Assembly: GCA_034620365.1 (NCBI GenBank)
Contig: JAQGEQ010000291.1
Coordinates: forward strand, 1 to 64,000
Source: Pegea sp. RAD2-039
Lineage: Eukaryota; Chordata; Thaliacea; Salpida; Salpidae
DNA: 64,000 bases
Direction: 5' to 3'
In this document: piece after piece, positions 17,424 through 47,453 of the stretch
Layout of the letters: each line of letters starts with the position of its first letter
Numbering within the stretch: the stretch's first letter is position 1
Program-made: the position numbers and the translations under genes
The notes under the pieces: model-generated
What the model was told of the DNA's origin: nothing
Databases searched by the model: none
What the model saw: the letters and a program-made list of their open reading frames with translations, nothing else

Positions 17424-17896
17424 CTTTATTAAAAAATAGGCAAGAAAAGAGTGCTTTATTTTTAGAAATCAAACTTTTAACTGATTTTAACTAGAGCTTC
17501 TGAAGAATTTGTTAACCTAAAAATAACTTATTCACTTGAAAACAACTTTTAAACTAGATATATATTAAGAGGGTTGGCTGGGATAGTGTTGATATCTTTC
17601 AAGAAATAATAACACAAAAAGTAAAAACGTAAGTCTTTGATTTGGAGTATATTTTTTAAAGTAATTCCATCCTATATTTATTACAATTATAATTTTTAAA
17701 TCATTGTAAACGAAGGCATGAAGTATTACTCGTAAAGTGTAATTGTTAGAAAGAACAATTTTTAGTAAGCATTGTATACTAAAATGATATTGCTGCCTGC
17801 CTATGAAGTTCGAATAAAGTGATTAATGACTGGTATTGAACTACTACAACTTTTTTGATCTGCTATTAGTTGACACGCCACACGATCTAAAGACAT

Positions 17897-17910
17897 TGAC
17901 CTCAAGGTCA
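17897..17910. promoter_or_regulatory. Everted nuclear-receptor-type half sites
   Basis: TGACCTCAAGGTCA consists of two AGGTCA half sites facing away from each other with a 2-bp spacer. The same 14-mer recurs at 21253-21266 in unit 1, and a one-base variant (TGACCACAAGGTCA) at 25471-25484 in unit 2. It lies just before the TTTTCGAATA...CTTCTCTT acceptor-like stretch. Binding is inferred from the motif only. Confidence 0.3.
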
Positions 17911-18352
17911 ACGGATTGCACAATTTTCGAATAGTTTTTCCCTTCTCTTAAAGGAGACGACGAAGGCTTTATTATTTACTTATAGTATTGGTTCTAATTT
18001 CTGCACCTGTAAGTACTTTATGCAATCAAACGCGATATTTCGTACCGATGATAGATTATTTGATTTCGAACCTAAATAGATCTTAAAGCAGATATAAACT
18101 ATTTTAAAAAGTAAGTAAATTTTTTTTCTTCCCACAATAATAGTTTCCCCAGTAATGGTTTGGCTATAAAATTTAGTTTAAATATTACTTAACCAAATGT
18201 ACTTTTCAGTCATGAGTTTTTTTAAAATTAACCTCTAGAGTACAGTTTTTTATTGTCATCAAACTTTAAACTAATATCCAATATGAAACTTAAGATAAAA
18301 ATTGCATATATTTAAATTTTATTTAATTTTTAAAATCAAAGACTGGAAACTT

Positions 18353-18412
18353 ATGAGTCTCCTTTTTGTGATCTTTGTAATCATCTGGTTTGTGATAAGA
18401 GTTTATGATTAG
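18353..18412 (+). CDS. Hydrophobic micropeptide frame, unit 0
   Basis: The frame ATG...TAG encodes MSLLFVIFVIIWFVIRVYD, 19 residues that form a single membrane-spanning or signal-like helix with a basic and acidic end. The unit 1 copy (21697-21756) gives the same peptide with a synonymous CTC/CTG difference. Unit 2 (25998-26051) has a CTG/TTG synonymous change and ends two codons earlier. It may be a free micropeptide or the remnant of a signal-peptide exon of a larger gene. Confidence 0.3.
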   Translation: MSLLFVIFVIIWFVIRVYD

Positions 18413-20136
18413 AGATATTTTGAAAATGCACTTTATATGTTAAAAGAAGATTTGTGAATACATTTGTAGAATTAAAGTTGAAATTAATAGTGGAAAGTTC
18501 AAATCTAAATGAATCAACAAATCAAACCCTTTTACTTGAAGCATCAAGATGAAAAGATAGTATTGGGTGTAATTTGATGGCCAATGATAAGCTTACAAGG
18601 TGTCACATTAAGGTGATCAACTGAAGGTTTTGATAATTTTATTTTATATAATAGTTCTGCCCTAATTAGGTAAAAATATTAACCTAAGACTTAACACTTT
18701 TGAATTTCGTAATATTTTAAACTTAAACTACCAAATAACTTTTTAAAATTTCAAAGCTTATGAAATATTTATCTTAAAAATACTTTTTTAATGTTTTATT
18801 ACATCATAAAAACTTTTCTTATAAATTTATTTTTTAATGACTATTATAAATTGAAGCTTTTCTAAATTTTTTTCTATTGGTAATTAAAATTTTCCCCTAA
18901 TCGAAACAAACCATATAAAGATAGGTTTGAAACATTTCATAGTACCAAGCGTCATGTGATACATACGTGGACCATACGTGGCTGTAGTACATCAAAATTA
19001 AACTGAAATCCATGACGCTTTAAAAAAAAGTCTTTTTACAAGAAGCAGAATCATCGCAAATATCATCAAACTAATCTAATCAACAAGCTGACTAATCTGT
19101 AAATCTGATATACTGCATGTCAAAAAAACTAAGCGCTATTGTTTCAACTTTCTATATATGATTATCTATTCTATTCCTTATACTGATTAATATCATTTAA
19201 TAAATTCAGCTTTTTCCTCCTGGGTTGCTTCTAATAAACGTTACAAGGCGATCATAACGATGTTCAAAGGAAGTTTTAACAGAGCTACATGTGACTTGAT
19301 CATATGACGTCATCTAGATGCAAGTAGTAGAAGAACTTGTAATCGAAAGCCACCAATAGAATTGTTGTGAATAATATCTATAAACAGAATCTCATTAAAA
19401 CAATCCTTACAACAGGAATCAACTTTGTTGCATTTATGAAATTTATCAGCACCAACTTAACCACTAACACTGACCATCACCATTATGAATATAGAACAGG
19501 AAAACAAATGATTGCGTAATAATTTCACAGCTCTAGTATCTTTGCAATTCTCTGCATGAATCTGCAAATAGATGCAACAGCGACGATGAGGTCACTGTGG
19601 CAATATAGTCACAAACGTCTTATGATAATTCAGAGTACTCTGCTGTAAAATCTACGCGGGTATTGTGAAAAGTTTAAATTCTTTTTCTGCGATGTCATCT
19701 TCTAAACTAAAATCCGAGAAAACAGAAAAAAAATGTTTAAGAATCAGGAAAAAAACAATAGTTGACAAAGTTTTCAATACAAAGTCGATATCAAAAACCA
19801 AATCTGTCTCTGATAAAAAAAAATGAATTTTGAGCAGAATTTCAATCTTTTCTGTGCAGACATGAAACAGCCATCATTTAAAAACTGATAAGTTTTTATG
19901 CAAGAATTCTCATTTGATGGCATTATTGATGTTGAAGCAGAAAATAAAGTAATAGCAAGCTTGTAAACTACAAAAACGATTTTAAATTTTGATTTTGTTC
20001 TTTTTATTGAAAAGTTTTCTTTTATAATGGGATGATTTAAAGCTCTGTTTTTTACGTCTTTAAATTTTAGTAGATTTAATGTGTTTTACAACTAAACACT
20101 AATTATAAGAAGGTTTGAGGTAAACTGTCAAACTAC

Positions 20137-20320
20137 TAGCGCCATCTTGCGAAAAGTTGCTACAAGTTATCAAACTGTTGATGATTATGTAACATTTCCG
20201 TTTTGCTAACTATAAATAGAGCATTCTATTTCCTTTAAAAGAGGAAACGTATCAGACAAAATTGTTTTACTTTTAACCAAAAGATTTATAACAATTTGCA
20301 TAAGACATTTTTGAGTGAGT
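20137..20320 (+). promoter_or_regulatory. Promoter-like module, unit 1
   Basis: TAGCGCCATCTTGCG (20137-20151) contains GCCATCTTG, the reverse complement of a YY1-type CAAGATGGC core. TATAAATA starts 74 nt later (20211-20218). A GTGAGT donor-like site follows at 20315, 104 nt after the TATA box, with an acceptor-like CTTGATGCAG ending at 20648. The arrangement reads as a TATA promoter, a ~75-nt non-coding leader and a 334-nt intron. Confidence 0.5.
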
Positions 20321-21696
20321 GTTTTATGTATGTAATCATTGTGAACAACAACAAATCTTTTTTAAGTTTGCAAATCGTAAATGTTAAAAAAATTGTTCAA
20401 ATTAAATATAGTGACAACTAACAAGAGCAATCCTATCATAACAAAATAAATATTTTTACCATTTAATTAAAGTTTACTAAGTGAAGAAAATTTAAACAAT
20501 AAAGTCAAAAGCCTAAAAAAAGAGAAGATTGCTCATTTTTAAACTTGTATTTTAAGATAAAAAATTAACACTTTGTTGAACAATTATTTTAGAATGATTT
20601 CTCAATTGGTCAGTTTGTGAATTGGTTTGTTTCCTTCTCTTGATGCAGTCAACGAAGGATTTACTATTTACTTATAGTTTTGATTATACTTTTTGCACCT
20701 GTTAGCACATTACGTAATCAAGCACGATATTTCGTATCTATGACAAAAAATTTGATTTCGAACCTTCATAAATCGAACCTACAGCAGAAATAAGCCATTA
20801 GATTTAATAACTAGTCTGTATTGGTACCGAAATAATCATCTGTCTATAAAATTCATGGAATATATTCTGATAAAAGTCTGTTAAATAAAAGTAAACGACT
20901 TTTAATCTAAAATTATATTAAGACATCTGGGTAGGATAGTGTTGTAATTTTGTTTTTGAAATAATAAGGCAAAAAGTAAAATCCTAAGTCTTTGATTTGG
21001 AGTATAAGTTTCAATGTAATTCCATCTTATATTTTTTACAATTATAATTTTTAAATCATTGTAAAACGAAGGTATGAAACATTACTCGTAAAATGTAATT
21101 GTTAGAAAAAACAATTTTTAGTAAGCATTGTATACTAAAATGATATTGATGCCTGCCTATGAAGTTTGAGTAAAGTAATTAACTACTGGTATTGAACTAC
21201 TACAACATTTTCGATTTACTACTAGTTGAAACGTCACAATATTAAAAGACATTGACCTCAAGGTCAACGGATTGCACAATTTTCGAATATATTTTTTCCC
21301 TTCTCTTAAAGGAGCCTATGACGGCTTTACTACCTAATTATAGTAATGATTATACTTTCTGCACCTGTAAGTACATTACGTAATCAAGCGCGACATTTCG
21401 TACCGATGATAGAATACCAGACTTCAAACCTATGTAGAACTTAAAGCAGATATAAGCCATTTTACAAAATAAGTAATTCTTTTATTGTTTCCTCTATAAT
21501 GGTTTGTCTATAAAATTTAGTTTAAGTATTACTTAACTAAATGTACTTTTTAGTGATGACTTCTTTTAATATTAACCTTTAAAGTACAGGTTCTTATTGT
21601 TATCAAACTTTAAACTAATATCCAATATAAAACTTATGATAAAAATTGCATAAATTTAAATCTTATTTATTTTGTAAAATCAAAGAGTTGAAGCTT

Positions 21697-21756
21697 ATGA
21701 GTCTGCTTTTTGTGATCTTTGTAATCATCTGGTTTGTGATAAGAGTTTATGATTAG
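21697..21756 (+). CDS. Hydrophobic micropeptide frame, unit 1
   Basis: This 19-codon frame encodes the same peptide as in unit 0. The ATG, reading frame and TAG are all kept. No clear Kozak-like context or transcript evidence is available. Confidence 0.3.
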   Translation: MSLLFVIFVIIWFVIRVYD

Positions 21757-22789
21757 AGATTTTTTGAAAATGTACTTTATATGTTGAAAAAAGATTTGTG
21801 AATACATTTATAGAATTAAAGTTGAAAATAATAGTGGAAGGTTCAAATATAAATGAAACAACAAAACAAACCTTTTACTCGATATATTAAATAAAAAATT
21901 ATTTTTAAGTAAAATTTGATAGCCAATGAAAAGCTTACAAGGTGTCATAATTAACTGAAGATTTTGATTTTGCTTTTTTTAATTATTCTTCATTATTAAA
22001 AGTATTTTTTTGATGACTATTATAAACTAAAAGTACTTTTAAATGTTGCTCTGGTGGTAAGTATAAATTTTCCCTAATCAAAACAAACCATATAACTATA
22101 CGACCAAAACACTTTTTAATAGTAACAAGTGTCACATGACTGTATTACATCATGATGACGCTGAAATCCAAGATGATTTCATCAAAACTGAGCTCTTACA
22201 AGAAGCAGAATCGTCACAAATATCATCAAACTAATCTAATCAACAATGCTGAATAATCTGTAAATCTGATCTACTGCATGTCAATAAAACTAAGCGCTTT
22301 TGTTTCAGTTTTCTATATATGATTATTTATACTATTCCTAATACTGATTAATATCATTTAACAAATTCAGCTTTTTTCTTCTTTGTTTGCTCTAAAAAGC
22401 ATTAGAAAGCGTTTAGAGTGATACTCTTTAACAAAAATTTTAACAAAATTTTAACAGCACTACATGTTACGTGTTCCTATGACGTCATCTAGATGCAGGT
22501 AGTACAAGAACTCGCCATTAGCCAACCAATAGAATTGTTGTGAACAACATATATAAACAAAATGTCATTAATAGATTTCTTACCAAATAACGGAAATTTG
22601 TTAGTTATGAAATTTATCAGCATCACTGCAACCACTCACACAGCCTATCACATCTAAGCTAGCTGTTGGTTCATCATAACTTCATTCTGAAGTCGATCAT
22701 CAATGATTGTATTACGAGATGAATGCAACATACGTCGACATCATTACAAATATTAGGTAAGACTTTTCATATCAAAAGCAGTTAGTCTG

Positions 22790-22873
22790 ATGAAAATATA
22801 TCAATATTTGAGAAATTCATGCACCAATGCACGTGATAGTGACATCATGCTAATAAACAAAATCCTATTTTAG
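22790..22873 (+). pseudogene. MKIDQ-type frame, unit 1 copy
   Basis: Of 27 codons, the first part reads MKIYQYLRNSCTNARDSD and the copy ends LINKILF with TAG. The stop replaces a sense codon seen in the 45855 copy (TCA). A GGTAAGA donor-like site lies 7-8 nt after the stop. Confidence 0.3.
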
Positions 22874-24748
22874 AAAAAAAGGTAAGATTATTATCGTTTC
22901 ATTGTTTCAATGGCTATCAATTGATGACGTCATCAAAAATGTGAAGAACTATGGTCGTTTAAAAGACAAATAAATATGTCACATTTTAATTATGAGATAA
23001 AATACACAGAGAAATATTCATAGCAAATTTATATCACAACACAATCATAAATATAGTCATCGGATTAAAAAGTATTGTGTAAGAGTTTCGTTATTCCGAG
23101 TATTGTTGTATATCTCTGCATGAAATTACAAATAGATCCGACAGCGACGATGACGTCACTGTAGCAATGTTGTCACAAACATTTTATGATAATTCAGAGT
23201 ACTGTAGTGTAAATTCTACGCGATTATCATAATAAATTTGAATTCATTATCTTGGATAACACCTTCAAAACTTCTATTTGATAAAATACTAAAAAATGTT
23301 TAAAAATAGGGAAGAAAATATTAGTAGACAAAATTTTCAATACAAAGTTGATATTATGAAAAAATTCTTCTCTGATAAATATGTGAATTTAAAGCAAAAG
23401 TTTAATTTGTTCTTCACAGTTTTGCAATAGCTACAACTTAAGAACTAATCATTATTTTGATTGTTGATCTTATTTTGCTATTGTGACAATAATGTGAACT
23501 AAGAATTTATTGGTATATGGTGCACAAGATAATTTAGGAAATTAAATGAGTTTTTGGACATGATTTATGATGTAACAAGTTGTGACGTCATTATTTGAAA
23601 CGACATCATTACCAGGTTCCTATTGGAGACATTATTATTAAAACGAGATTACGATAGAAACACCATTATGTCAATCCTTTGTGTGATCTTGTGAATCCGA
23701 GTTTAAACTCGTCCAGCAATACAGATGACGTCAATGAGATACCATCTTCAAAACTGAAATTAGTCATTTCCGCATGAATGATTTCAAGCTGGTTAGCGCT
23801 GACAGTTTGGAAATTATTTCAAAACGCTAAAAATCACACTTATCGGTTTCCGATGTAAAATTGAAAACTAATGAAGGTTTTGAATTGATGAGAAAGCCGT
23901 AATATTCGAAACTTAAAATTGTATTGCCACCTGATGCACACATTTACTATTGATACACTCGAGCGACTAACAAAAGTTGATGAATAGTAGTAATCACAAG
24001 ATTAAACTTCCAGCTAATGGTGCATTTGATTCTTGTAATTGATCCTTTAAGCTGAAACGGCGACCTGTTACCAAAAGCATAAATAAGCTATAAGGCTTTC
24101 AGTATTGAAAGTTACCAAGAGTTAATCACATGACACGACATCAATGACGTCATCATGTTATGAGATAAGTCGTAAATTAAAGTTGTAGTGAAATAACATC
24201 GTCAAGTTTGATGACATCACGAAGTTTTGATTGGCTTAAAAGATCAATAATAGAATGGAAGCAGTGAAGTGGAACTATTTTCAACTCAAGATAACGAAGA
24301 TGTATTCTAGAATTTTGATTAAATGTGAAGAAAATACGTCAACTTCAATTTAGTAACTTCAATTTCATCAAAATATTATAAAAACTATTTTGGAAGAAAT
24401 TCATGTTGACGTCAACAATACAAAAATTCCTTTATTAAAGATAACCACTTTTAATTATCAATTAAGTTAAATCTTCTCACAAGAACTTCATAAATAAAAA
24501 TCATAATAAAGTAACATAAAAAACAAATTAATATAAAATAATAAGAAATACGTTGAAAAGTTTCATACTAGTAATCCACAAAAAATGTTATAAAATGATT
24601 TTAGATGCTTCATTTGTTCTTTTTATTGAAAATTTCCTTTTATAATGAGATAATTAGAAGGTTGGTTTTCGTTTTCAACTTGCGACTGATTCAATGTCTT
24701 TTAAAACCAAACACTAAGTAAAAGGTTTGAGGTAAAAAGTCAAACTAC

Positions 24749-24932
24749 TAGCGCCATCTTGCGAAACTTTGTTAAAAGTTATTAAACTTTTGATGATTAT
24801 GTAACATTTCTGTTTTTCTAACTATAAATAATGCATTCTATTTCCTTTAAAAGAGGAAACATATTTGACAAAATTGTTTTACTTTTAACCAAAAGATTTA
24901 GATCAATTTGTAAAAGACATTTTTGAGTGAGT
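24749..24932 (+). promoter_or_regulatory. Promoter-like module, unit 2
   Basis: The same box (24749-24763) and TATAAATA (24823-24830) are 74 nt apart. The GTGAGT donor lies at 24927, again 104 nt after TATA, and the acceptor TTGATGCAG ends at 25269. Confidence 0.5.
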
Positions 24933-27242
24933 GTTTTATATATGTATCCATTGTGAATAACAAAAACAACAAATCTTTTTTAAGTTTGCAAATGGTAATC
25001 AATAAAGAAATTGTTCAAATTGAATAAAGTGACAAATCACCAGAGCAATACTATCATAACAAAATCAATATTTTCACCATTTATTTAATGTTTACTGAGT
25101 GAAGAAAATGCAGCAAATAAAGTCAAAAGCCTACAAAGATGAGAAGATTGCTCATTATTAAACTTTTATTTCATATGATAAAAAATTATTACTTTGTTGA
25201 AGAATTAATTTAAAATGATTTCTCTCTTGGTCAATTTTCGAATAGATTTGTTTCCTTCTCTTGATGCAGCCAACGATGGCTTTTACTATTTACCTATAGT
25301 TCTGATTAAACTTTTTGCACCTGTTAGCACATTACGTAATCAAGTACGAAATTTCGTATCTATGACAGAAAATTTGATTTCGAACCTATTATCAGTTGAC
25401 TTTATTAGAACAGAATCAGTTGAAACTATGAATCTACTATTAGTTGACATGTCACAAAATCAAAAAACATTGACCACAAGGTCAACTGATTGCACAGTTT
25501 TCGAATATGTTTTTCCCTTCTCTTTAGGAGCCTATGACGGCTTTACTACCTAATTATAGTAATGATTATACTTTCTGCACCAGTTCTGCAACTTTGTTTC
25601 CTTCTCTTGATGCAGTCAACGATGGCTTTACTATTTACTTATAGTAATGATTATACTTTCTGCACCTGTAAGTACATTACGTAATCAAGCGCGACATTTC
25701 GTACCGATGATAGAATACCAGACTTCGAACCTATGTAGAACTTAAAGCAAATATAAGCCATTTGACAAAATAAGTAATTTTTTTATTGTTTTCTCTATAA
25801 TAGTTTGTCTATAAAATTTAGTTTAAGTATTACTTAACTAAATGTACTTTTTAGTGATGACTTCTTTTAATATTAACCTTTAAAGTACAGGTTTTTATTG
25901 TCATAAAACTTTAAACTAATATCCAATATAAAATTTAAGATAAAAATTGCATAAATTTAAATTTGATTTAATCTATAAAATCAAAGACTTGAAGCTTATG
26001 AGTTTGCTTTTTGTGATCTTTGTAATCATCTGGTTTGTGATAAGAGTTTAATATTAGAGATATTTTGAGAATGCACTTTATATGTTGAACTAAGATTTTT
26101 GAATACAATTATAGAATTAAAGTTAAAAATTATAGTGGAAATTTCAAATCTAAATGAATTAACAAATCAAACCTTTTTATTTGAAATATCAAGATAAAAA
26201 TATATTATTAAGTAAAACTTGATGGCCAATAAAAAGCTTACAATGTGTCATAATTAAGTATTAACTGAGGATTTTGATTTTGCTTTTTATAATTATTCTT
26301 CACTAATTTGGTAAAATTATCAACTTAAGACTTAAAACTTTTGTATTTAATAACATTTTAAAACATTAATTACCAGATGAATTTTAACATATCAAAGTTT
26401 ATGAAATATTTTGCTCAGAAACACCTTTATAAAGTTTTATTACATTTTACAAAAACTTTGTGTTAAAAGTATTTTTTTGATGACTATTTTAGATTAAAAC
26501 TACTTTGGTATCTTGCTCTGGTGATAAGTAAAAATTTTTCCTAATCAAAACAAACCATATGACGATACGACAAAAACACTTTTTAATAGTAACAAGTGTC
26601 ACATGACTGTATTACATCATGATGACGCTGAAATCCAAGATGATTTCATCAAAACAGAGCTCTTACAAGAAGCAGAATCGTCACAAATATCATCAAACTA
26701 ATCTAATCAACAATGCTGAATAATCTGTAAATCTGATCTACTGCATGTCAATAAAACTAAGCGCTTTTGTTTCAGTTTTCTATATATGATTATTTATACT
26801 ATTCCTTATACTGTTTAATATCATTTGATAAATTCAGTTTTTTCCTTCTTTGCTGGCTCTAAAAAGCATTAGAAAGGGATTATAATGATACTCAAACAAA
26901 GTTTTAACAGCACTGCATGTCAGGTGATCATATAATGTCATCTAGATGCAGGTAGTACAAGAACTCGCCATCAGCCAACCAATAGAATTGTTGTGAATAA
27001 TATATATAAACAGAATATCATTAATAGATTTCTTACCACATAACGGAAATTTGTTAGTCATGAAATTTATCAGCATCACTGCAACCACTCACACAGCTTA
27101 TCACATCTAAGCTAGCTGTTGGTTCATCATGACTTCATTCTGAAGTCGATCATCACTGATTTTAATACGAGGTGAATGCAACATACGTCGACATCATTAC
27201 ACATGTTAAGTAACACTTCTCATATCAAAAGCAGTTAGTCTG

Positions 27243-27326
27243 ATGAAAATATATCAATATTTGAGAAATTCATGCATCAATGCACGTGATAGTGACATCA
27301 TGCTAATAAACAAAATCCTATTTTAG
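27243..27326 (+). pseudogene. MKIDQ-type frame, unit 2 copy
   Basis: This frame is nearly identical to the unit 1 copy, with one amino-acid change (T to I at residue 12) and the same early TAG. It belongs to the same recent tandem duplication. Confidence 0.3.
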
Positions 27327-31976: not shown

Positions 31977-32139
31977 AGTTCGAATTTCTTTGCAACTCTC
32001 TGCATGAAATTACAAATAGATCCGACAGCGACGATGAGGTCACTGTGGCAATATAGTCACAAACATCTTATGATAATTCAGAGTACTCTGCTGTAAAATC
32101 TACGCGGGTATTGTGAAAAGTTTAAATTCTTTTTCTGCG

Positions 32140-33457: not shown

Positions 33458-35241
33458 ATTTTATAGATGTATTCATTGTGTACAACAACAAATACTTTTT
33501 AAATTGGTAAATGGTGAATGTTAAGGAAATTGTTCAAATTTAATTGAATACAGTGACAATTAACAAAATCAATCTTATCATAACAAAATAACTTAGCTTT
33601 AATTTTTTCGTTAATGTTTACTAAGTGAGGAAAATGCAACCAATAAAGTCAAAAGCATAAAAAAATGATAAGATTGCTCATTATTAAACTCTATTTCATG
33701 CGATAAAAAGTAATTACTTTGTTGAATAATTAATTAAAAATGATTTCTCATTTGTTCTTTTTTCGAATAGGTTTGTTTCCTTAATGCAGCCAACGAGGTC
33801 TTTACTGTTTACTTACACATTTAGTTCAACTTTCTGAAACTGTTAATACATTACGTAATCAGGCGCGACGTTTCGTATCGATGATAGAATATTTGATTTC
33901 GAACCTATATACATACCAGTAATTTCCAACCTACATCATAAATAAGGCATTATTATTATTATTATTGACATAATAAGTAATCAGTTTTGTTTCCACAATA
34001 ATCATTTGTCTATAAAATTTACTCTAAATACTAATTAACCAAATGTACTTTTTGGTGACGAGTTTTTATTAATATTAAGATTGAAAGTAGAGTTTGTTAT
34101 TACCATCAAATTTTAAACTAAATTCTTCTATCAACCTTAGAATATCAATAGCATAAGAGTAAATTTACTTTTACTTAATTTATTAAGGAGAAATTAATTA
34201 TTAAGTATAATTTGATGGCAACTGATAAGCTTACAAGGTGTTATTATAAGGTGATTAAATGAAGATTTTGATTTTTCTCTATATAATAATTTTGCCCTAA
34301 TTTGGTAAAAACATTCACTTAAAACTTTAAACTTTTGTATTTCGTAACATTTTAAAACTTTAACTATCAGAAAATTTTTAACATTTCAAAGTTTATGAAA
34401 TATTTAGCTCGCAAATACTTTTCTAAAGTTTTATTACATTATCAAAACTTTTGTATTAAAAGTATTTTTTGATGACTATTATAAACTAAAACTACTTTTA
34501 ATATTCCTCTAGTGGTAATTAAAATGTTCCTCTAATCGAAAAAAACCATATAACGATACGACCAAAGCACTTTTTAATAGTAACAAGTGTCACGTGATTG
34601 TATTAGATCATCGTGATGCTGAAATGCTAGATGGTTTCATCAAAACAGACCTCTTACAAGGCACAGAATCATCACAAATACTATCAAACCTATCTACTCA
34701 ACAATGCTGACTTATCTGCAAATTTGATCTACTGCATGTTAATAAAACTAAGCGCTATTGTTTAAGCTTTCTAAATATGGTTATTTATACTATTCCTTAT
34801 ACTGATTAATGTCATTTAATAAATTCAGCTTTTTTCTTCATTGTTGGCTCTATTAAGCGTCACAAAGCGATCATGTTGATACTAAAAGAAAGTTTTAAAA
34901 GAACTCTGTCTCACGTGATAGTATGACGTCATCTAGATGCAAGTAGTACAAGAACTTGTCATCGAAAGCCACTGATAGAATTGTTGAGAATAGTATCAAG
35001 AAACAGAATCTCATTTATAGAGTCCTTACCACGAGAAGCAAAATTGTTAGAGTTATCAGATTATCATTGTCACTGCAACCACCCACACAGCCCATCACAT
35101 CGGTTCTAAACTAGCTGTTGGTTCATCATGACTTCATTCTGAATTCGATCATTACTGATTGTAATACGGGCTGAATGCAACATTCGTCGACATCATTAGA
35201 AATGTTACGTAAGACTTATTAGAGCAAAAGGAGTTAATCTG

Positions 35242-35376
35242 ATGAAAATAGATCAGTATCTATTTAATCCTTATAGCAATGCAAGTGATAGTGACATCAA
35301 GCTAATAAACAAAATAATTTTTGTAAAACTAAAGTATAAATTTTATCGTTTCATTATTTCATTGTTCATCAATTGA
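35242..35376 (+). CDS. MKIDQ-type frame, unit 5 copy (44 aa)
   Basis: The frame reads MKIDQYLFNPYSNASDSD then IKLINKIIFVKLKYKFYRF and stops after FIN. One extra base near the end shifts it relative to the 42269 copy. If the shift is allowed for, the SIDEVIKNVNKFGRLK block follows in homologous position. Confidence 0.3.
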   Translation: MKIDQYLFNPYSNASDSDIKLINKIIFVKLKYKFYRFIISLFIN

Positions 35377-38300
35377 TGAGGTCATCAAAAATGTGAACAA
35401 ATTTGGTCGTTTGAAAGAAAATAAGAATGCAAAATTTGATTATGAGAAAAAATACTCATGCAAATATTCGTAGAAAAATTATATCAAATTACAATCATAA
35501 ATAAAAATATTGGAATAAAAAGTATTGTGTAATAATTTTGTTATTTCGAGGATTTTTGTAATTCGCTGTATGAAATTAGAAAAAGATCCAACAGCGACGA
35601 TGACGTCACTGTAGCAATGTAGTCACAAACATTTTGTGATAATTCAGAGTACTGTAGTATAAGTTCTACGCTGTTATCATAATAGATTTAAAATCATTTT
35701 CTGCGATTTCATCTTCAAAAGTTATATTTGAGAAAATACTAAAAAATGTTTAAAATCAGGAAATAAAACATTGGTAGACGAAGTTTTCAACACAATGTCG
35801 ACATTATAAACAAATAATTTTCTGATAAAAAAGTGAACTAAAAGCAACACTTCTTTTTGTTCTTCACAGTTTTGCAATAGCTGATCATTTGTTCATTGTT
35901 GGTCCTATTTCGCTAATGTGACAATAATTTGAACTAAGAATATATTGGTATATGGCACACAAGATAATTTAGCAAAATAAATCAGTTCTTGGACATGATT
36001 TATGATGTAACAAGTTTTGACGTCATTATTTGTGACAACATCACTACTAGGTTCATATTAGTGACATTATTATTAAAAAGATTACAATACAAACATCTTT
36101 TCGTCAATCATTTGTGTGATCTTTTGCATTCGAGTATAAACTCGTCCGGCATTATAGATAACGTTAGATAGATAACGTTTGATAGAAATACTTTGCAACC
36201 CTTCGTGTGATCTTTTAAATCCCAGTTAAAGCATGTCCAGCAATAAAGATATCGTTATTGTGATGTCATCTTGAAAGTCATTAGTGTCAGTTCTCCATGA
36301 ATGATTTCAAGCTGGTTGGTGTTTACGACTTGAAAATGATTTGAAGACGCTAAAAATCACACTCATCGGTTTCTGATGTAAAATTGAAATCTTATGAATT
36401 AATTGAAGTGATGAGAAAATCTTATTCAAAACTTAAAGTTGCATCGCGACCTGATAAACAAGTTGAGTACAGTAGAGCGATACAGAAGAGCGACTAACAA
36501 AAGTTGATAAATAGTAGTAATCACAAGATTGAACTACCAGCTAATGGTGCATTTGAGCTGAAACGGCGACCTGTTACCAAAAGCATAAATAAGTTATAAA
36601 GTTTGGAGTATTAAAAGTTACTAAGAGTGAATCACATGACACGACATCAATGACGTCATCATATTAAGAGATAAGTCGTAATTCAAAGTTGTAGTGAAAT
36701 AACATCTTCAATTTCGGTGACATCACGAAGTCTCGGTTCGCTTAAAAGATCAATAGTAGAATAGAAGCAGTGATGTGGAACTATTTTCAAATCAAGATAA
36801 CGAGGATGTAATTTAGAATTTTGAGTAAATGTGAAGACAACACGTCAACTTCAATTTAGTAATTTCAATTTGATAAAATAAAAATTTTGAAAGAAATAAA
36901 TTCATGTTGACATCAACAATACAGAAATTCCCCTATTAAAGATAACCACTTTTAATTATCAATTAAGTTAAATCTTCTCACAAAACCTCATAAATAATAA
37001 TCATAATAAAGTAACATTAAAAACAAATTAATATAAAATAATAAGAAATACGTTGAGAAGTTTCATACTTGTAATCCACAAGAAATGTAGAAAAGAAACT
37101 GCTTTGGAGAAATCTTTATCTCTTCTTACAATCCTCTGCATCCTAACATCGATGATGACGTCAGTAACTGAAGTTGCTTCAATCATGTATGAATGATTTG
37201 AAGTCAGTAATTAGCGACCACTTGGAGACGACAAAATGATTTCTGGAGGATTTCAAATCAGACTCATTCTCTGTTTCTCATGTGAAAGGTTTTCGATGTA
37301 CTCGAGACTAGAGAAATTGTTTTACTTTTTGTTACCTGATCCTAATAAGCTGTCATACTAATTTTTTTATTTTTGGTTTGTCGAATTAATCAGAGAAGTA
37401 TATTATTTATAGATTATTTAATACATTCCAAACGTGAAAATATACTTTTTATTATTAATGAAAGTCTCATACCAATATAGCTGATAGCTGATAGAAGCTT
37501 ACATTTTGATTATATAAATATTTTATTTGTCAAACTTCAAACATTTTTAAAACTAAATTTGATTTCTCAATTACTCAATTTTCGAATAGTTTTTCCCTTT
37601 TTTTAAAGCAGCCAACGAGGGCTTTACTATTTACTAATATTTTTGGTGATACTTTGTGCACCTGTTAGTAAATTACATAATCAAACGCGATATTTCGAAT
37701 CGATGACAGAAAATTTTATATCGAACCTATATACATATGATAAGCTTACAAGTTGTCATAGTAATGTGATCAACTGAAGATTTTGGGTTTACTCTTTATA
37801 ACAATTCTAGCTTAACTAAGTAAAAGTAATCATCTAAGTCTTAAAACTTTGGCATTCCGTAGTTTCTTACAATATTAACTACCAGATGATTTATGATTTT
37901 TCAAAGTTTATGAAATTTTTAGATTACAAATGCTTTTTAAGTGGCTTATTATATTTAACAAAACTTTCATTTTAAAGAATTTTCTGATGAATATTATAAA
38001 TTGAAACTTTTTAAAATTTTACTCTATTGGTAATTACAATTTTTCCCTATTGAAACAAAACCATATAACGATACGATCAAAAACACATCTTGCTAGTAAA
38101 ACCTGTTACGTAATTGTATTACATCATCATGTTAGTGAAAGCTTTTCATCATAACAGTCCTCTTACAAGAAGCAGAATCATCAAACCTACAGTAATTATT
38201 TCCATATTAGTTCAACAATAAAACATTATAAAGTATTTTATGCAGAACCTTTCGTAATAGGAGTTTGACAAAAGTTTATAAAACTTAAAATTGAAAATTA

Positions 38301-38585
38301 AAACTTCTATAAGCTACCGACAGTTTTCGCAACATATTTTAAAATGTTTTTATGGAAGAACTATCATTTTATGGAAATATTAATTGAAGCAGAAAACAGA
38401 GTACCAGCAAATTAATAAACTACCTAAACGATTTTAGATGCTTCAATTGTGCTTTTTATTGAAAAATTTCCGTTTATAAAGAAATAATTTGAAGGTTGGT
38501 TTTTTATGTCTTCAACTTGCAACTGATTCAATGTCTTTTACAGCCAAACACTAAGGAAAAGCTTTGAGGTAACTTGTCAAACCAC

Positions 38586-38806
38586 TAGCGCTATCTTGCG
38601 AAACGTTGTTAAAAGTTATTCAACTATTGATGATTATATAACGTTTCCTTTTCTCTAACTATAAATACAGCTTTTTATTCTTCTAAAATGGTAATATCCT
38701 CTTACAGAATTGTTTTACATTTAAAAGAGGAAACGTATCTGACAAATTTGTTTTACTTTTAACCAAAAGATTTTGAACAATTTTTAAAAGACATTTTTGA
38801 GTGAGT
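38586..38806 (+). promoter_or_regulatory. Promoter-like module, cluster start
   Basis: TAGCGCTATCTTGCG (38586-38600) is followed by TATAAATA at 38660-38667, spacing 74. The leader is about 37 nt longer than in units 1, 2 and 5, because an AAAGAGGAAACGTATCTGAC segment follows a diverged leader start. The donor GTGAGT is at 38801. Confidence 0.45.
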
Positions 38807-41800
38807 ATTTTCTTATATGTATCATTACTAAACAACAGCAACATTTATTTAAGTTTGCAAATGGTAATCAATAAAGAAATTGTTCAAAATTAATTGAAAA
38901 TAATGACAAATAACAAAGCAATCATATCATAAGAAAATCAAAATTTTTACTGTTTAATTAATGTATAATAAATTAAAAAATTGTAACAAATATAAACAAA
39001 AGCATAAAAAATGATAAGGTTAATTTTTATTATAGTTGTATTTTGTACATAAAAATTATTATTTTATTGAAAACTTTTTTTTAATAATTTCTCAATTAGT
39101 CAATTTTCGAATAGGTTTGTTTCCTTCTTTTAATGCAGCCAACGAGTGCTGTACAAGGGATTTACTATCTACTTATAGTTTTGATTAAACTTTTTGCACC
39201 TGTTAGTAAATTGCGAAATCAAGTGCGACCTTTCGCACCTATGACCGAACATTTGATTTCAAACCTATATATATAGAAGTTAGAGCGAAAATAAGCCACC
39301 TGAAAAAAATAATCTGTTTTGTTTTCACAATAATCGTTTGTCTATAAAATTCAATTTAAATATTAATTAACCTAATGTACATTTTGGTGATGATTTTTTT
39401 AATACTATGATTGAAAGTAGAGTTTGTAATTGTCATCAAATCTAAACTATTATCTTCTATCAAACTTTACTTAATATTTGCATAAAAGTAAATCTGATTT
39501 AATTTATAAGACCAAAATAATAAAGCACGTGAGTTCTTACTTGTATTTTATTAGTACTTTCCTAGTTCATCTTTTTTTTCATCTGGTTTGGGATTAAAGT
39601 TTAAGATTAGAGATATTTTGAGAATGCACTTTATATGAAAAAAGAAGATTTGTGAATACATTTATAGAATTAAAGTTAAGAATGATAGTTCAAAGTTAAA
39701 ATCTAAAAGATCAACAAATAAAACCTTTTTACTTGAAGTATCAAAATAAAAAACTACTTTTGGGTAAAATTTGATGGCAACTGATAAGCTTACAAGGTGT
39801 CACATTAAGGGGATGAGCTGAAGACTTTAATTTTTCTTTATATAATAATTCTGACATAATTTGGTAAAAACAATCATTTAAGACTCACAACTTTTGTATT
39901 TGGTAACATTTTAAAAAATTAACTACCAAATGACTTGTGGTTGTTCAAAAATTCTGAAAGTTTCATCTTACAAGTACTTTTTAAGTGTTTTATTACGTTT
40001 AACATAACTTTGTATTAACATTATTTCTTGATGACTTTTATAAACTGAAACTTCATTCAAATGTTGCTCTAGTGTTAATTAAAACATTATCTAATAGAAA
40101 CAAACCATTTACGATACGAACAAAAAAACATCGTATTAGTTACAAGTGTAACGAGACTGTATTACATCATGATGACGCTGAAATGCAAGATACTTTTATC
40201 AAAAGAATCTTCTTACAAGAAGCAAAATCATCACAAATATCATTAAACCTATCTAATCAACAACGCTGGATTATCTGTAAATCTACTGCATGTCAATAAA
40301 TTTCAGCGCTATTGTTTCAGTTTTCTATATATGACTATTTATTTTATTCCTTATACTGATTAATATCATTTAATAAATACAGCTTTTTCTTTCTGTGATA
40401 CAACAAAAATTCGTTTGTGGTACCAAAAGACTTAGAACAATATGTAAAAGACCTTTTTGAGTGAGTATTTTATAGATGTATCAATTGTGAGAACAACAAA
40501 TCTTTTTTAAGTTCGCAAATGTTAAATGTTAAAGAAGTTGTTCAAATTGAATTGAATGAAATCAGTGACAAACAACAAGAGCAATCCTATCATAACAAAA
40601 TAAATATCTTCACTTTTTAATTAATGTTTACTAAATGAAAAAATGCAACGAAAATAAACATAAGCTAAAAAAAATTATAAGGTTGTTTATTATTCAAGTT
40701 AAAATTCATATCATAAAAAATCATTACTTGTTTGAATAATTTAATTAAAACAATTAATCAATTGGTCATTTTTCGAAAACGCTTGTTTGCTTAATGCAAC
40801 CAACGAGGGCTTTACCATTTACTTATAGTTTTGATTATACTTTTTACAACTGTTAGTACATTACATAATCATACGACATTTCACACCTACGACCGAACGT
40901 TTTATTTTAAACTTATATATACGGAACTTACAGCAGAAATTGGCCACTTGACATAAAAAGTAATCTGTTTTGTTTTTACAATAATCATTAACTGTAAATT
41001 TACTTTAAATATTATTTTACAAAATATAATTTTTGATGATAAGTTTTTTTAAGATTAAGATTGAAAGTAGAGTCTATCATTGTCATGAAATTTTAAAATA
41101 ATATCTTCTTTGAAACATAAAATATTAATAACGTCAGAGTAAATTTGATTTAGTTTATAAAATCGAAATCTTTTTTCGCATGAGTTTTTACTTGTATTTT
41201 TTAGTACAGTGATCTATGTTTTCATCTGGTTTGTGATTAAAGTTTATCCCTAGAGATATTTTGAAATAGCAATTATTATGTTAAAAAAGGCTTTGTGAAT
41301 ACATTTATGAAACTAAAGTTAAATTCTGCAAAGATATAATCTAACGAAATACACAAAACAAATCCTTTTACTTGATGCCTAAGCAAAAAAAGATGTTTTT
41401 ATTAAAATTTGACAGCAACTGATTAGCTTACAAGGTGTCATGATAAGGTGATTAAGTGAAGATTTTGATTTTAATTTATATAATTACTCTGCACTAATTA
41501 GGTAAAAACAATCATTTAAGTCTTAAATCTTTTGTTATTGGTTACATTTTTGAACTTTAAACACCAGATGATTTGTGGTATTTCAAAATTTAAGAAAGTT
41601 TTAGTTTACAAATACTTTTTAAGTGTTTTATTACATTTAACAAAACTTTTTTAAACCTTTTTTAATGACTATTATCAACTAAAACTTCATTCAAATATTA
41701 CTCTAGTGGCACGTAAATAGTATACTAATCGTAAGAAACCATATAATGATACGAACAAAAACACTTTTTAATGGTAACAAGTGTCAAGTGACTGTATTAC

Positions 41801-42268
41801 ATCATCGTGTTGCTCAAATGCTAGGTGCTGTCATTAAAACAGACCTCTTACAAGAAGCAGAATCAATTAGCAAATTTCTATTTAGCATTAGAAAGCGATC
41901 ATAAGGATACTCCAAGTGAGTTTTTAAAGTACTCTTTGTCACCTGATCATATGACGTCATCTAGATGCAAGTATTTCAAGAACTTGTCATCGAAAGCCAC
42001 CAATAGAATTGTTGTGAATGATATCAAGAAACAGACTCATTAATAGAGTCCTTATCACAAGAAGCAAAATTGTTAGAGTTATGAAAGTTAGCAGCGTCAC
42101 GGCAACCACTCACTCAGCCCTTCACATCGGTTCTATACTAGCTGTTAGTTCATCATGACTTCATTCTGAAGTCGATCATCACTGATTGTAATACGAGGTA
42201 AATGCAACATACGTCGACATCATTACAAATGTTAAGTAACACTTCTCATAGCAAAAGGAGTTAATCTG

Positions 42269-42457
42269 ATGAAAATTGATCAATGTTTGATTAATTCTTG
42301 CATCAATGCGAATATTAGCGACATCAAGCTAGTAAACAAATTCTTTTTAGTAAAACTTAGCTATAAACTTTATCGTTGCATTATTTCATTGCAATCAATT
42401 GATGACGTCATTTATAATGTGAAAAAATTTGATCGTTTGAAAAGCAAATATTCGTAA
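42269..42457 (+). CDS. MKIDQ-type small protein, longest intact copy (62 aa)
   Basis: The frame starts at an ATG preceded by AAAAGGAGTTAATCTG, a context shared by several copies. It reads MKIDQCLINSCINANISD, continues through IKLVNKFFLVKL, and ends with a SIDDVIYNVKKFDRLK block that is recognisable at the same place in units 1, 2 and 5 and at 45985. No domain is recognised. The sequence GATGACGTCATT inside the SIDDV block is one of the recurrent TGACGTCA palindromes. Six other copies keep the first 25 or more codons without any indel, which is unusual in this array, where indels are common. Alternatively the region is a 5' exon with a GTAAG donor after INKIL, as suggested by the 22790, 27243 and 45855 copies. 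Confidence 0.4.
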   Translation: MKIDQCLINSCINANISDIKLVNKFFLVKLSYKLYRCIISLQSIDDVIYNVKKFDRLKSKYS

Positions 42458-42830
42458 AAAATTTATATCAAATCACAATCATAAATATAATTATCAAAAT
42501 AAAACCGATTGTCTAAGAATTTTGTTGATTCGAGCATCTTTGACGTCGAATCTATATAGAACTACAACAGAAATAAGCCACATGACACAAAAACTAATCT
42601 TTTTTCATTCTACAATAATAGTTTCCACAGTAATGGTTTGTCTATAAAATTTAATTTAAAGATTACCTAACCAATTGTACTTTTTAGTGATTACTTTTTT
42701 TATTATTAATATTAAAAGTAGAGTTTTATATTGTCATCAAATTTTAAACTAATATCCAATATGAAACTCAAGATAAAGATTTCATAAATCTAAGTCTTAT
42801 TTAATTTTTAAAATCAAAGACTTGAAGCCT

Positions 42831-42923
42831 ATGAGTCTGCTTTTTGTGATCTTTGTAACCATCTGGATTGTGATAAGAGTTTATGAGAGATATTTTGAAA
42901 ATGCACTTTATATGTTGAAATAA
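42831..42923 (+). CDS. Hydrophobic micropeptide frame, extended
   Basis: The peptide begins MSLLFVIFVTIWIVIRVY as in units 0-2. A short deletion removes the usual GATTAG stop, so the frame runs on through ERYFENALYMLK to 30 residues. This is probably decay rather than a functional extension. Confidence 0.2.
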   Translation: MSLLFVIFVTIWIVIRVYERYFENALYMLK

Positions 42924-43787
42924 GATTTGTGAATACATTTATAGAATTAAAGTTAAAAATGATGCAAAGTTAAATCTGAAAAATAAACAGAACACACCCT
43001 TTTACTTGATGTATAAGAAAAAAAGATATCGTTAAGTAAAATTTGATAACTGATAAGCTTACGACGTGTTATTATAGGGTGATTAACTGAGGATTTTAGT
43101 TTTACTTCTTATAATTATTCTCTGCTAATTAGGTAAAAATAATCATTTAATAAATTTGGCCCTTCGTAATTTCAAAAAATATTAACTACTAGATGACTTG
43201 TGGTATTTCAAAGTTTATGAAAGTTTTAGTTTAAACATACTCTTTATTGTTTTATTACACTTAACTAAATTTTTTTTAAAGTATTTTCTGATGACTATTA
43301 TAAATTTAAGCTTTTGTAAAAATTTCTCTATTGGTATTTACGATTTTCCCCTTATCAAAACAAACCATATAAATATAGGTTCAAAACACTTCTTAGTAAT
43401 AACAGGTGTATTACATCAATAGGTACCAATATAATGTGTTTGTATTACAGCAATATGAGACTGAATTGCAAGATGCTTTTAACAAAAAAGTAATATCAAA
43501 AGAGTCTTTTTACAAGAAGCAGAATCATCGCAACTATCATCAAACCTATCTAATCAACAAGCTGACTTATCTGTAAGTCTGATCTACTGCATGTCAGTAA
43601 AACTAAGCGCTATTGTTTCAACTTGCTATATATGATTATTTATTCTATTCCTTATACTAATTAGTATAATCTATTAATTTCAGCTTTTTCCTTCTAAGTT
43701 AGCTCCAATAGGCGTCACAAGGCGATCATAATGATATTCAAACAAAGTTTTAACAGAACTACATGTCACTTGATCATATGACGTCAT

Positions 43788-44003
43788 CTAGATGCAACTA
43801 GTGCAAGAACTCGACATTAGACAACATCCGTTACAATTGTTGTGAATAATATCAAGAAACAGAATCTCATTAATATAGTCCTTACCAAAAGAATCAAACT
43901 TTTTACAGTTATGACATTTAACAGCACCACCGCAACCACTAACACAGCCAATCACCATTATAAATATAGAATCGGAATAAAAACGATTGCGTAATAATTT
44001 CAT
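43788..44003 (-). CDS. Secreted cysteine-rich peptide candidate, copy 2 (71 aa)
   Basis: This is the same frame as copy 1 and has ten cysteines. The N-terminus MKLLRNRFYSDSIFIMVIG is hydrophobic after two basic residues. CVSGC follows (~20-24), then KCHNCKKFDS (~29-38), NEILFLDIIHNNC (~45-57), GCC and CTSC. An in-frame GTG nine codons upstream extends the open frame to 44030, but the ATG at 44003 aligns exactly with copy 1. TGACGTCA palindromes bracket it: 43779-43786 just after the stop and 44062-44069 upstream. A minus-strand AATAAA lies at 43639-43644. Eight of ten cysteine positions differ in presence between copies only at three or four sites, which is compatible with either decay or diversification. 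Confidence 0.45.
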   Translation of the reverse strand: MKLLRNRFYSDSIFIMVIGCVSGCGGAVKCHNCKKFDSFGKDYINEILFLDIIHNNCNGCCLMSSSCTSCI

Positions 44004-45854
44004 ATCCCGAGCATCTTTGCAATTCTCCACATGAAATTACAAATAGATCCAACAGCGACGATGACGTCACTGTGGCAATGTAATCTAAAAATTTTAAAAA
44101 ATGATAAGATAAGTCTTGATCAAACTTGTATTTCATATTATAAAAAATTATTTCTTTATTGAATAATTTATTTAAAATAAATTCTCAATTGTTCAATTTT
44201 CGAATAGGTTTGTTTCCTTTTGTTAAGGCAGCCAACGAGGGCTTTACTATTTACTTATAGTTTTGATTATACTTTTTGCACCTGTTAGTACATTACATAA
44301 TCAAGCACGACAATTCGTATCTACAGAAATCGTACGACAGAAAATTTTATTTCGAACCTATATCATCGAACCTACAACAGAACGAACTTACAGCAGAAAT
44401 AATCCGCTTGACATAAAAAGTAGATAACTTTGTTTTCACAATAATCATTTGTCTATAAAACTTACTTTAAATATTATTTAACCAAATGTACTTTTTTGAG
44501 ATGAGTTTTTTTAAGATTAAATTAAAAGTAGAGTTTATTTTTGTAATGAAATATTAAAATAATATCTTCTATCAAACTTAAAATAATAATAACACAAACA
44601 TAATTTTTATTTACCTTATAACATCAAAATCATGAAGTACATGAGCTCTTAATAAAGATCATACTGTAAGTATGTTTTTTTTAGTACAGTGATCTTTGTT
44701 TTTATCGTTTAGATTATTTTATTGGTTTTTGATTATAGTTTATGGTTAAAGGTTATATATTTTGAAAACGTATTTATTACGTTAAAAGAGGCTTTGTGAA
44801 TTCATTACTAAATTTAAAGTTAAAAATGATAGTGCAAATTTAAAATCTAAAAAAATCAATAAAACTGACACTTTTGTTTGACATATCAAGAAAAAAATAT
44901 GTTTAAGTAAATTTTGATGGCAACTGATAAACTAACAAGGTGTGATAAAAAGGTGATTAACTGAATATATTGGTTTCATTCCTTATAATTATTCTGCCCT
45001 AATTAGGTAAAAATAATCAGTTAGAACATTAAACTTTTGCTTTTGGTAACATTTTAAAACATTAACTATCAGTTGATTTGTGACATTTCAAAAATTATGA
45101 AATTTATAGTTTATAAATACTTTTTTAGTGCTTTAGTACATTTAATAAAACCTTATACTAACAGACTTTTTTTTAATGTCATCATGAATTTTAGCTTTTT
45201 AATTTTTTCTATTAGTAATTAAAATTTAACCTAATCGAAGCAAACCATATAACGATACGACCAAAATCAATTCTTAATAGTAACAAGTGTCACGTGACTG
45301 TATTACATCATTGTGATGCTGAAATGCTAGATGGTTTCATCACAAGAGTATTCTTACAAGAAGCAGAATCATCACAATTATCATCAGATTTATCTAATCA
45401 AGAATGCTGACTAATCTGTAAATCTGATCTACTGTTGTAAATAAAACTTAGCGCTATTGTTTCAGCTTTATATACATGATTATTTATACTATTCCTTATA
45501 TTGATTGATATCATTTAGTAAATACTCTGTGTCACGTGATCATACAACGTCATCTAGATGCAAGTAGTACAAGAACTTGTCATCAGACTACCGCCATTAG
45601 AATCACTGTGACTAACAGAATCTTATTTATAGAGTCCTTATCACAAGAAGCAAATTTTTTGCAGTTATTAAAGTTATCAACATAACCGCAACCACTAACA
45701 CAGCCCATTACATCGGTTCTAAACTAGATGTTGGTTTATCATAACTTCATTCTGAAGTCGATCATCACTGATTGCAAAACGGGTTTAATGCAACATTCAT
45801 CGACATAATTACAAATGTTAGGCAAGACTTCTTATATCAAAAGGAGTTAATCTG

Positions 45855-45950
45855 ATGAAAATAGATCAATTGTTGATAAATTCATGCATCAATGCAAGTG
45901 ATAGTGACATCAAACTAATAAACAAAATCCTACTTTCAAATCGAAGGTAA
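45855..45950 (+). CDS. MKIDQ-type frame with donor-like end
   Basis: The frame reads MKIDQLLINSCINASDSD then IKLINKILLSNRR and stops at TAA. The last codons overlap CGAAG|GTAAAA, a possible 5' splice site that would keep the frame open to the junction. This copy lies closest to the consensus of the seven. Confidence 0.35.
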   Translation: MKIDQLLINSCINASDSDIKLINKILLSNRR

Positions 45951-47453
45951 AAATATAACCGTTTCAATATTTTATTTGGTATCAATTGATGAGGTCATCA
46001 AAAATGTGAACAAATTTGGTCGTTTGAAAGACAAATAAATATGCCACAATTTGATTATGGGAAAAAATACACATAGAAATATTCGTAACAAATTTATATC
46101 AAATTACAATCATAAATATAAATATCGGAATAAAAATTGTTGTGTAAGAATTTCGTTATTTCGAGTATTTTTGTAATTCTCTGTATGAAATTACAATTAG
46201 ATCCGACAGTGACGATGACGTCACTGTAGCAATGTAGTCACAAATATTTTTTAATAATTCAGAGTACTGTAGTGTAAATTCTACGCTGTTATCATAATAA
46301 ATTTGAATTCATTTTCTGGGATAACACATTCAAAACTTAAATCTGTGAAAATACAAAAAAAATGTTTAAAAATAGGGAAGAAAATATTAGTAGACAAAAT
46401 TTTCAATACAAAGTTGACATTATGAAAAAATATTTCTCTGATAAAAAAGTGAATTTAAAGCAAAAGTTTAATTTGTTCTTCACTAAAGTTGTTCTAAAGC
46501 AGTCAACGAGGGCTTTACTATTTACTAATATTTTTGGTGATACTTTGTGCACCTGTTAGTAAATTACGTAATCAAGCGCGATATTTCGAATCGATGACAG
46601 AAAATTTTATTTCGAACTTATATACATATGATAAGCTTACAAGTTGTCATATTAAAGTGATTAACTGAAGATTTTGGTTTTACTCTTTATAATAATTTTA
46701 CCCTAATTAAGTAAACATAATCACCTAAGTCTTAAAATTCTATCATTTCGTAATTTTTAAAAATTCTAACTACCAGATGATTTGTGGTATTTCAAAGTTT
46801 ATGAAATTTTTAGCTTACAAATACTTTTTAAGTGTTTTAGTACGTTTAAACAAACTTTTTGTTAAAGTGTTTTCTGATAACCAATATAAATTGAAAATTT
46901 TTTATATTTTACTCTATTGTTAATTAAAATTTTCCCCTAATTAGAACAAACCATATGACGATACGAACAAAAGCACATCCTAAATTTAACAAGTGTCACA
47001 TGACTGTATTACATCATGATGATGCTGAAATGGAAGATGCCTTCATCAGAAGAGTCTTTTTACAAGAAGCAGAATCATCACAAATATCATCAAACCTATC
47101 TAATCAACAAGCTGACTAATCTGTAAATTTGATCTACTGCATATCAAAAAAACTAAGCGCTTTGTTTCAACTCCTTATTCAACTTCCAGATTTTTTTTAC
47201 CATTCCATTGATTGCAATAGAAATATGGCTGAACAGAACATACGTCGATTCATATATACAATTTATAAATTGATATCATTACAAATGTTAGGTAATATTT
47301 CTTAGAGCAAAAGATTTTGAAAGTTATGATGTAAGATTTCAAGATCTTTGATTAAGTTAATATTGCTATTGAGTTTACTATTGTCATCTTTTTTTGCTAC
47401 CTTTTTCAAAAATAAAAATATTGAATATATATCAAAATATTTTATATGATTGT

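Follow-up and report, generated by a model that had tools for sequence, protein, structure and literature searches.

Mammalian macrosatellites such as DXZ4 and D4Z4 are kilobase-scale units in direct arrays at one or a few loci, according to PMC6985041. PMC4820808 describes repeats of Firre that are likewise confined to a single locus; one of these, a DNA element to which CTCF and YY1 bind, is able to act as an enhancer. Here we describe a repeat locus in the tunicate Pegea sp. RAD2-039, analyzed in the first 64 kb ("the window") of contig JAQGEQ010000291.1 (hereafter C322; 371,542 bp, in an assembly of 105.7 Mb and 387 contigs). A unit of about 4.6 kb occurs on this contig in about 30 whole or partial copies arranged as two opposed rows. 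We think it reasonably probable that the array is macrosatellite-like, non-coding and restricted to its locus, that its core binds protein and is under constraint, and that it grows, shrinks and decays through unequal exchange. The odds of this reading and of its rivals overlap: the layout stands even if the core is neutral. Among the papers listed from the openly accessible literature on ascidian, tunicate and Ciona satellite DNA, macrosatellites and tandem repeats, from which the subscription literature is largely excluded, no title or opening of an abstract describes such an array.

In its layout the array appears to resemble mammalian macrosatellites more than a gene family or a transposon. 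Its kilobase-scale units run head to tail at one or a few loci, and it contains a slow-evolving internal core, a candidate for the protein-binding or promoter element known from DXZ4; a TATA-like box in the unit is unconserved. Macrosatellites also vary in copy number between individuals; the present comparison uses one assembly. The C322 array is AT-rich tunicate sequence and is compared with DXZ4 and D4Z4 by layout. Unlike these arrays, C322 units lose modules, form two opposed arms, have no conserved TATA box and carry a predicted YY1-like site in module A, outside the core. D4Z4 carries DUX4, whereas no coding was detected in the C322 array. The Firre repeats are non-contiguous and lie inside a known long non-coding RNA, whereas the C322 units are contiguous and are known from sequence alone.

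Self-comparison was extended over 164 kb of C322, with a strand map built from 1-kb averages. Up to 54.5 kb, matches to the left array are on the + strand; between 60.6 and 108 kb they are on the − strand. The sequence-only reading that preceded this work had described a 30-kb direct array with more units at 50.3-54.4 kb and 60.7-64 kb. The direct array and the inner + strand units are confirmed and share one module order; units are also present at 60.6-64 kb, but they lie on the − strand and begin the opposed array, which makes the locus larger than first described. The arrays and the modules of the reference unit are as follows.

17540-47169, + strand: main part of the left array, in which the modular unit is directly repeated; of the 14 copies or fragments of module E in the left arm, 12 lie here
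50363-54453, + strand: left array, inner part, beyond a 3-kb gap containing a host gene
60583-64000, − strand: right, opposed array, first part, which extends to about C322:108000
19973-20594, + strand: module A of the reference unit, with the YY1-like GCGCCATCTTGCG at 20139 and a TATA-like box at 20210
20595-20773, + strand: module B, with the palindrome TTACGTAA at 20710 and a pyrimidine tract plus AG at 20634
20773-21213, + strand: module C, rare, with further matches at 17540-17855, a 33-bp scrap at 49881 and C322:122260-122520
21271-21433, + strand: module B2, a second B-type copy, with TTACGTAA at 21376
21437-21990, + strand: module D
21994-22450, + strand: module E, conserved over 22200-22350, AATAAA at 22283
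22465-22960, + strand: module F, which includes the core, with TGACGTCA at 22480 and 22925
22961-24590, + strand: modules G-H-I-J, with five TGACGTCA sites

The module order is A-B-C-B2-D-E-F-G-H-I-J, and the full unit at 19973-24590 measures 4.6 kb. Modules are frequently absent, and in many units they have been lost, doubled or fused. Copies are 67-97% identical to the reference unit, far above chance; by hand count, module E occurs, whole or partial, at 14 places in the left array and 17 in the right. Beyond the arrays, a diverged + strand remnant of modules C-B2-D lies at C322:122260-123329, and module scraps of about 60 bp lie close to copies of a ZNF380-type gene. The turnover and decay proposed earlier are supported by absent modules, partial duplicates, the spread of identities and the ZNF380 scraps within and beside the arrays.

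Queries spanning 20000-24600 matched C322 only, with the exception of part of module F, which also matched contig C278. The genome search scores the best candidates and skips very common words; 40 of 57 candidates were scored in the search that found the C278 relation of F, and the other searches scored all of theirs. When the C278 unit was the query, the list contained the C322 cores, other places on C322 and C278, and fragments on C279, C264 and C39, but lacked the C278 array itself. Because of this omission, the confinement of the modules to two loci is likely rather than proved.

The part of module F shared with C278 is a core of about 345 bp, of which 27 copies lie in an array at C278:374601-432761 whose units are otherwise unrelated. 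Its extent was set by a profile search starting from window 22653-22831. The 27 cores are spaced 1.96-2.33 kb apart, with one interval of 3.28 kb, and long self-matches within the C278 array have 85-96% identity. A 34-bp stretch at the heart of the core, allowing up to 3 mismatches, is found 40 times in the genome (27 on C278, 13 on C322 and none elsewhere), and the reversed pattern, used as a control, gave 0 matches. A centromeric satellite would be expected at each centromere, with CENP-A chromatin; the heart of the core was seen at these two loci only. Apart from these 345 bp, the C322 and C278 units share one weaker block, about 150 bp long; the remainder is unrelated by the methods used. 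The copies in the window are as follows.

22611-22956, + strand: core block, reference copy, about 345 bp, common to the C278 array
22653-22831, + strand: inner core copy 1
27106-27284, + strand: inner core copy 2
35105-35285, + strand: inner core copy 3
42132-42309, + strand: inner core copy 4
45718-45896, + strand: inner core copy 5, the sole one of the 13 C322 copies to have a 24-base stretch that 21 of the 27 C278 copies carry
52593-52771, + strand: inner core copy 6
61841-62019, − strand: inner core copy 7, in the right array

Short dispersed relatives of non-core parts of the C278 unit, 70-91% alike, were seen at C278:129427-129986, C278:362284, C278:439615, C279:1682 and 7566, C264:562983 and C39:848166.

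The core is among the slowest-evolving stretches in both arrays. On C278, 25 units from 26 intervals were aligned and 513 windows of 150 bp, each present in >90% of units, were ranked. The top window, at 98.75%, is the start of the core; the unit averages 94.87%, and the best such window outside the core has 96.3%. The top value exceeds those of all 1000 column shuffles (highest 98.49%). On C322, core stretches reach 0.95-0.97 against a unit mean of 0.86, and the variance among 30-bp windows is 0.0030 against 0.0017 ± 0.0002 in shuffles (columns with at least 10 copies).

The unit also contains candidate binding motifs: the palindromes TGACGTCA and TTACGTAA, which we take to be bZIP-type, and GCGCCATCTTGCG, presumably YY1-like. 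Motif retention was ranked against the consensus instead of a reference copy, because an intact motif in the reference biases the measure and had made retention look too strong. The seven TGACGTCA sites of the unit show a mean excess over their flanks of 0.047 (242 of 20000 random sets were as high), the two TTACGTAA sites an excess of 0.090 (103 of 20000), and the YY1-like site falls in the top 3.6% of windows. Within the arrays TGACGTCA was counted 25 times in 33.6 kb and 49 times in 47.4 kb, with 0.2 and 0.4 expected from 20 shuffles. A large excess of TGACGTCA over dinucleotide shuffles was seen within and outside the arrays to 164 kb, including ZNF380-type coding sequence.

The expression signals noted in the sequence-only reading fared unequally. 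A promoter-like module was recognizable in that module A has a TATA-like box, but the box is unconserved: of 17 aligned copies only 10 keep TATAWAW or TATAATTA, and 91% of windows match or exceed it in conservation. Module B has the splice-like site (pyrimidine tract plus AG), but this is kept no better than its flank and is matched or bettered by 70% of windows. For the poly(A)-like AATAAA of module E, the surrounding 16-mer is exact in 8 of 18 copies where 3.2 were expected from the flank. Downstream of the TATA box, module A contains ATTCTATTT, which resembles the start of a spliced leader; kinship of module A with the spliced leader was rejected, as the spliced-leader (SL) RNA array of this genome (C4:1135044-1142217) shows no relation to it by eye. 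That array is, like the one on C322, a tandem of unit plus spacer, but its unit is about 199 bp long and of different sequence, as against about 4.6 kb.

Conserved reading frames on both strands had also been claimed for the unit. An initial codon test that paired each copy with a reference was dropped, since a single change in the reference was counted in every pair and inflated z. It was replaced by a test for synonymous excess on distinct changes in 25-codon windows, with a simulated power control, in stretches with at least 5 alignable copies (module C lies outside these). No window rose above z 2.46 among 374 in the C278 unit (standard deviation 1.02) or above z 2.73 in the C322 blocks (standard deviations 0.4-1.3). 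When copies were simulated from two real genes of the window, z exceeded 2.7 in 100% of windows at omega 0.1, in 61-88% at omega 0.3 and in 3-9% at omega 0.6. Therefore, strong or moderate constraint would have been detected, and weak constraint or short exons might escape. In the stretch from 17.5 to 29.7 kb, no codon periodicity was visible and indels are mostly not multiples of three. One − strand frame in the core, NICNDIDECCIKPVLQSMMIDFRMKL (NICNDIDECC...), was singled out because it was stop-free in the first test; it reaches z 1.3-2.3, first or second of its set, and is stop-free in 35 of 40 copies, with stops in the other 5. For frame 61996-62415, one of the array's two longest, none of 58 candidates from about 5.8 billion proteins matched at E 0.01, and Pfam gave no match. 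The synonymous excess across copies expected of a tandem protein-coding family was thus absent from the tested stretches; neither the conserved frames nor an amplified cluster of small protein genes is borne out, and the label "gene-bearing" is not supported for the unit.

RNA genes were sought by family and by structure. Rfam gave zero matches at gathering score across the window, and Pfam gave none above cut-off in the six array frames tested (three in the window, three of C278), in keeping with the earlier statement that neither a known transposon nor a known tandem gene family is recognizable. In permissive mode, Rfam returned weak matches of the core to C/D-box small nucleolar RNA (snoRNA) types (sR5, sR10, sR12, sR28 and SNORD50; E 0.017-4.9). 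All of these lie below gathering scores, and with no D box visible by eye a snoRNA identity was rejected. Folding 20 core copies to a consensus gave weak structures (−5.8 and −3.8 kcal/mol on the two strands, a single two-sided change per fold). Several of these rows lack one core end; the complete alignment had 40 copies, and a further complete core alignment contained 22 of the 40. Six single folds gave z from +0.26 to −1.80. A hairpin scan of 928 windows, with one unit per array, reached z −4.0 at best (40 mononucleotide shuffles), and by eye none of its windows resembled a microRNA precursor. One − strand hairpin window with z −3.5 by mononucleotide shuffles was dropped after dinucleotide shuffles gave z −0.85. 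A family match or covarying structure, as expected of a cluster of small nuclear RNA, snoRNA, microRNA or SL RNA genes, was not found in these searches.

Several observations weigh against a constrained core, and some of them suit a neutral complex satellite, in which the core drifts like the rest, one array was seeded by a piece of the other and conversion mimics conservation. On C322, the best 30-bp window was equalled by 62 of 1000 shuffles; therefore, the evidence for conservation from C322 alone is moderate, and its peaks are modest, as a neutral satellite would predict. Other stretches surpass the core: an optional stretch in 64% of C278 units is less diverse (99.67%), presumably reflecting recent spread, and windows in H-J, present in 8-9 copies only, reach up to 0.995 and are presumably young. 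Two of the seven TGACGTCA sites are kept no better than their neighbors, both C278 TGACGTCA sites reach the top 15-16% only, and the palindrome is in excess outside the arrays as well (11 in 56 kb to the right, with 0.4 expected from 20 shuffles; 6 in 8.2 kb to the left). The copies are non-independent, and conversion could homogenize the core without selection. That only a fragment is shared could also have come about without constraint, if the second array arose from a founding piece of 345-500 bp. The C278 cores form one clade (100/100) whose stem of 0.16 changes per site hardly exceeds the longest single C322 branches, at up to 0.15, and the 24-base stretch that copy 45718 shares with most C278 copies is what fragment transfer might give. 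The absence of the modules elsewhere is weakly tested, given the search omissions. Against neutrality, the same 150-bp stretch is the most conserved of those widely shared in C278 and near the top in C322, and the palindromic sites on average outlast their neighbors. On balance we regard a neutral satellite as possible, though rather unlikely.

We consider it unlikely, too, that the array is a cluster of non-coding RNA genes in which every core is either an RNA gene lacking structure or a promoter for a long non-coding RNA and the rest is spacer. The TATA-like box, AATAAA and pyrimidine-AG signals of some copies would suit such genes, and the arrangement of gene plus spacer is reminiscent of repeated RNA genes such as the SL RNA array; the TATA box is unconserved, however, and the Rfam and folding results above speak against it. 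A decayed cluster of small-protein genes, with intact members perhaps on C278, would account for the high rank and mostly open state of the NICNDIDECCIKPVLQSMMIDFRMKL frame. It is very unlikely in view of the codon test and its power at omega up to 0.3, the lack of relatives of frame 61996-62415 and the frame-breaking indels. Least credible is a mobile or degenerate virus-like element amplified in place. Nested modules, shortened copies and the small dispersed fragments of C278 spacer recall one, but each arm keeps a single orientation, the six array frames had no Pfam match above cut-off, and in the searches made, within the limits given above, the modules were encountered on C322 only, with part of F on C278, in place of the dispersed copies expected of a transposable element. 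The gene-carrying element offered as an alternative in the sequence-only reading is accordingly not supported.

If the macrosatellite-like array with a constrained core is the correct account, a unit of about 4.6 kb would have been multiplied into two opposed rows, with copies gained and lost by unequal crossing-over and conversion, probably including exchange from arm to arm. The bulk of each unit would be drifting spacer. The core, together with the scattered TGACGTCA and TTACGTAA palindromes and the YY1-like site, would be a candidate protein-binding DNA element, and the array a multimerized binding platform that might serve as a boundary, an enhancer cluster or the promoter of a non-coding RNA. 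A bolder version, which we find doubtful, is that the C322 and C278 arrays are a pair of chromatin-organizing macrosatellites in a tunicate, outside mammals, with different spacers and only a core kept alike, to which a sequence-specific protein would bind dozens of times. They would then form a boundary, pair up in long-range contact or provide a dosage-sensitive platform, in line with proposals for DXZ4 and FIRRE. Were the core bound and constrained, this compact non-vertebrate chordate would allow a test of whether macrosatellites do anything, and evolution itself would have separated core from spacer, the two arrays sharing only the candidate functional part. Were it neutral, the locus would still clearly exemplify opposed arrays whose flanking genes are duplicated and whose units mix between the arms.

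The palindromes of mammalian Y chromosomes carry gene pairs in their arms. The C322 arms likewise form an imperfect palindrome of about 100 kb with an ALR-ZNF380 gene pair at either end: the pair at 13406-14941 has an inverse twin at 115662-114128 that is 97.8% alike. Unlike in Y palindromes, the arms are mainly tandem arrays of unequal lengths and are 87% alike in their inner part, where 51917-54453 is mirrored at C322:63191-65746 over 2.58 kb (axis near 58.8 kb). Trees were built for modules A, B, D, E and F from 14, 28, 17, 17 and 11 copies; in them left and right units are intermixed about as in shuffled labels (module D: 6 changes versus 5.9). Units near the center tend to match near-center units of the other arm (Spearman 0.45, 48 non-independent pairs). 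This history would fit inverted duplication followed by unequal exchange and conversion. A fold-back of haplotypes in the assembly could also yield a palindrome; it is less likely because the arm homology stops near 12.4 kb and 116.3 kb and colinearity between the arrays is lacking. The genes in and beside the arrays within the window are as follows.

13531-14073, + strand: host gene ALR/GFER (Evr1_Alr), with an inverted twin at C322:114-115.7 kb
14157-14894, + strand: host gene with a ZNF380 coiled-coil domain, 84 bp behind ALR, with an inverted twin at C322:114.2-115.0 kb
47558-49179, − strand: host gene of several exons, with a QRICH1 domain (Pfam E 4.4e-10), in the left-array gap, limits by eye and approximate
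58256-58976, + strand: two-exon gene between the arrays near the mirror axis, no Pfam match

The highest-scoring named relative of the ALR sulfhydryl oxidase among the matches listed is from Phallusia mammillata (60% identity). A partial third ZNF380 copy (91%) adjoins the right array at C322:108.5-110.0 kb, and a 108-bp ZNF380 scrap lies at 50133-50240. The ALR and ZNF380-type genes run in the same direction, separated by an 84-bp gap with an acceptor-like TTTACAG, as in a tunicate operon.

The spliced leader given for Ciona in PMC7986045, ATTCTATTTGAATAAG, has 272 exact occurrences in the assembly, and the reversed pattern 0; they include the SL RNA array on C4, with its period of about 199 bp. 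A search of the assembly for COX1 gave no match. Among the matches listed (100 of the 272 leader places), at least six places carry doubled leaders with starts 16-34 bp apart: C1:936457, C1:4097425, C1:4358943, C12:144596, C18:114120 and C22:21505 (L048-L053). One of the six has a third, truncated copy. In five of the six, the last copy is followed by TGCTT(A/C)TAAGTTGTGA..., and L051 continues into a stretch resembling a long interspersed nuclear element (LINE). They look as if retrotransposon transcripts had been trans-spliced and then repeatedly copied back into the genome.

Elsewhere on C322, positions 1-9300 hold a separate set of repeats, mainly inverted and 74-87% alike, and 10400-11100 (− strand) holds, by eye, a remnant like a LINE-type reverse transcriptase with broken frames. 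Of the frames at C322:128000-129430 (L015), one matches Tet_JBP weakly (E 7.7e-5, under the curated cut-off); this is possibly a TET dioxygenase gene. A tandem repeat with a period of about 257 bp and copies 89-97% alike occupies C322:134602-137828.

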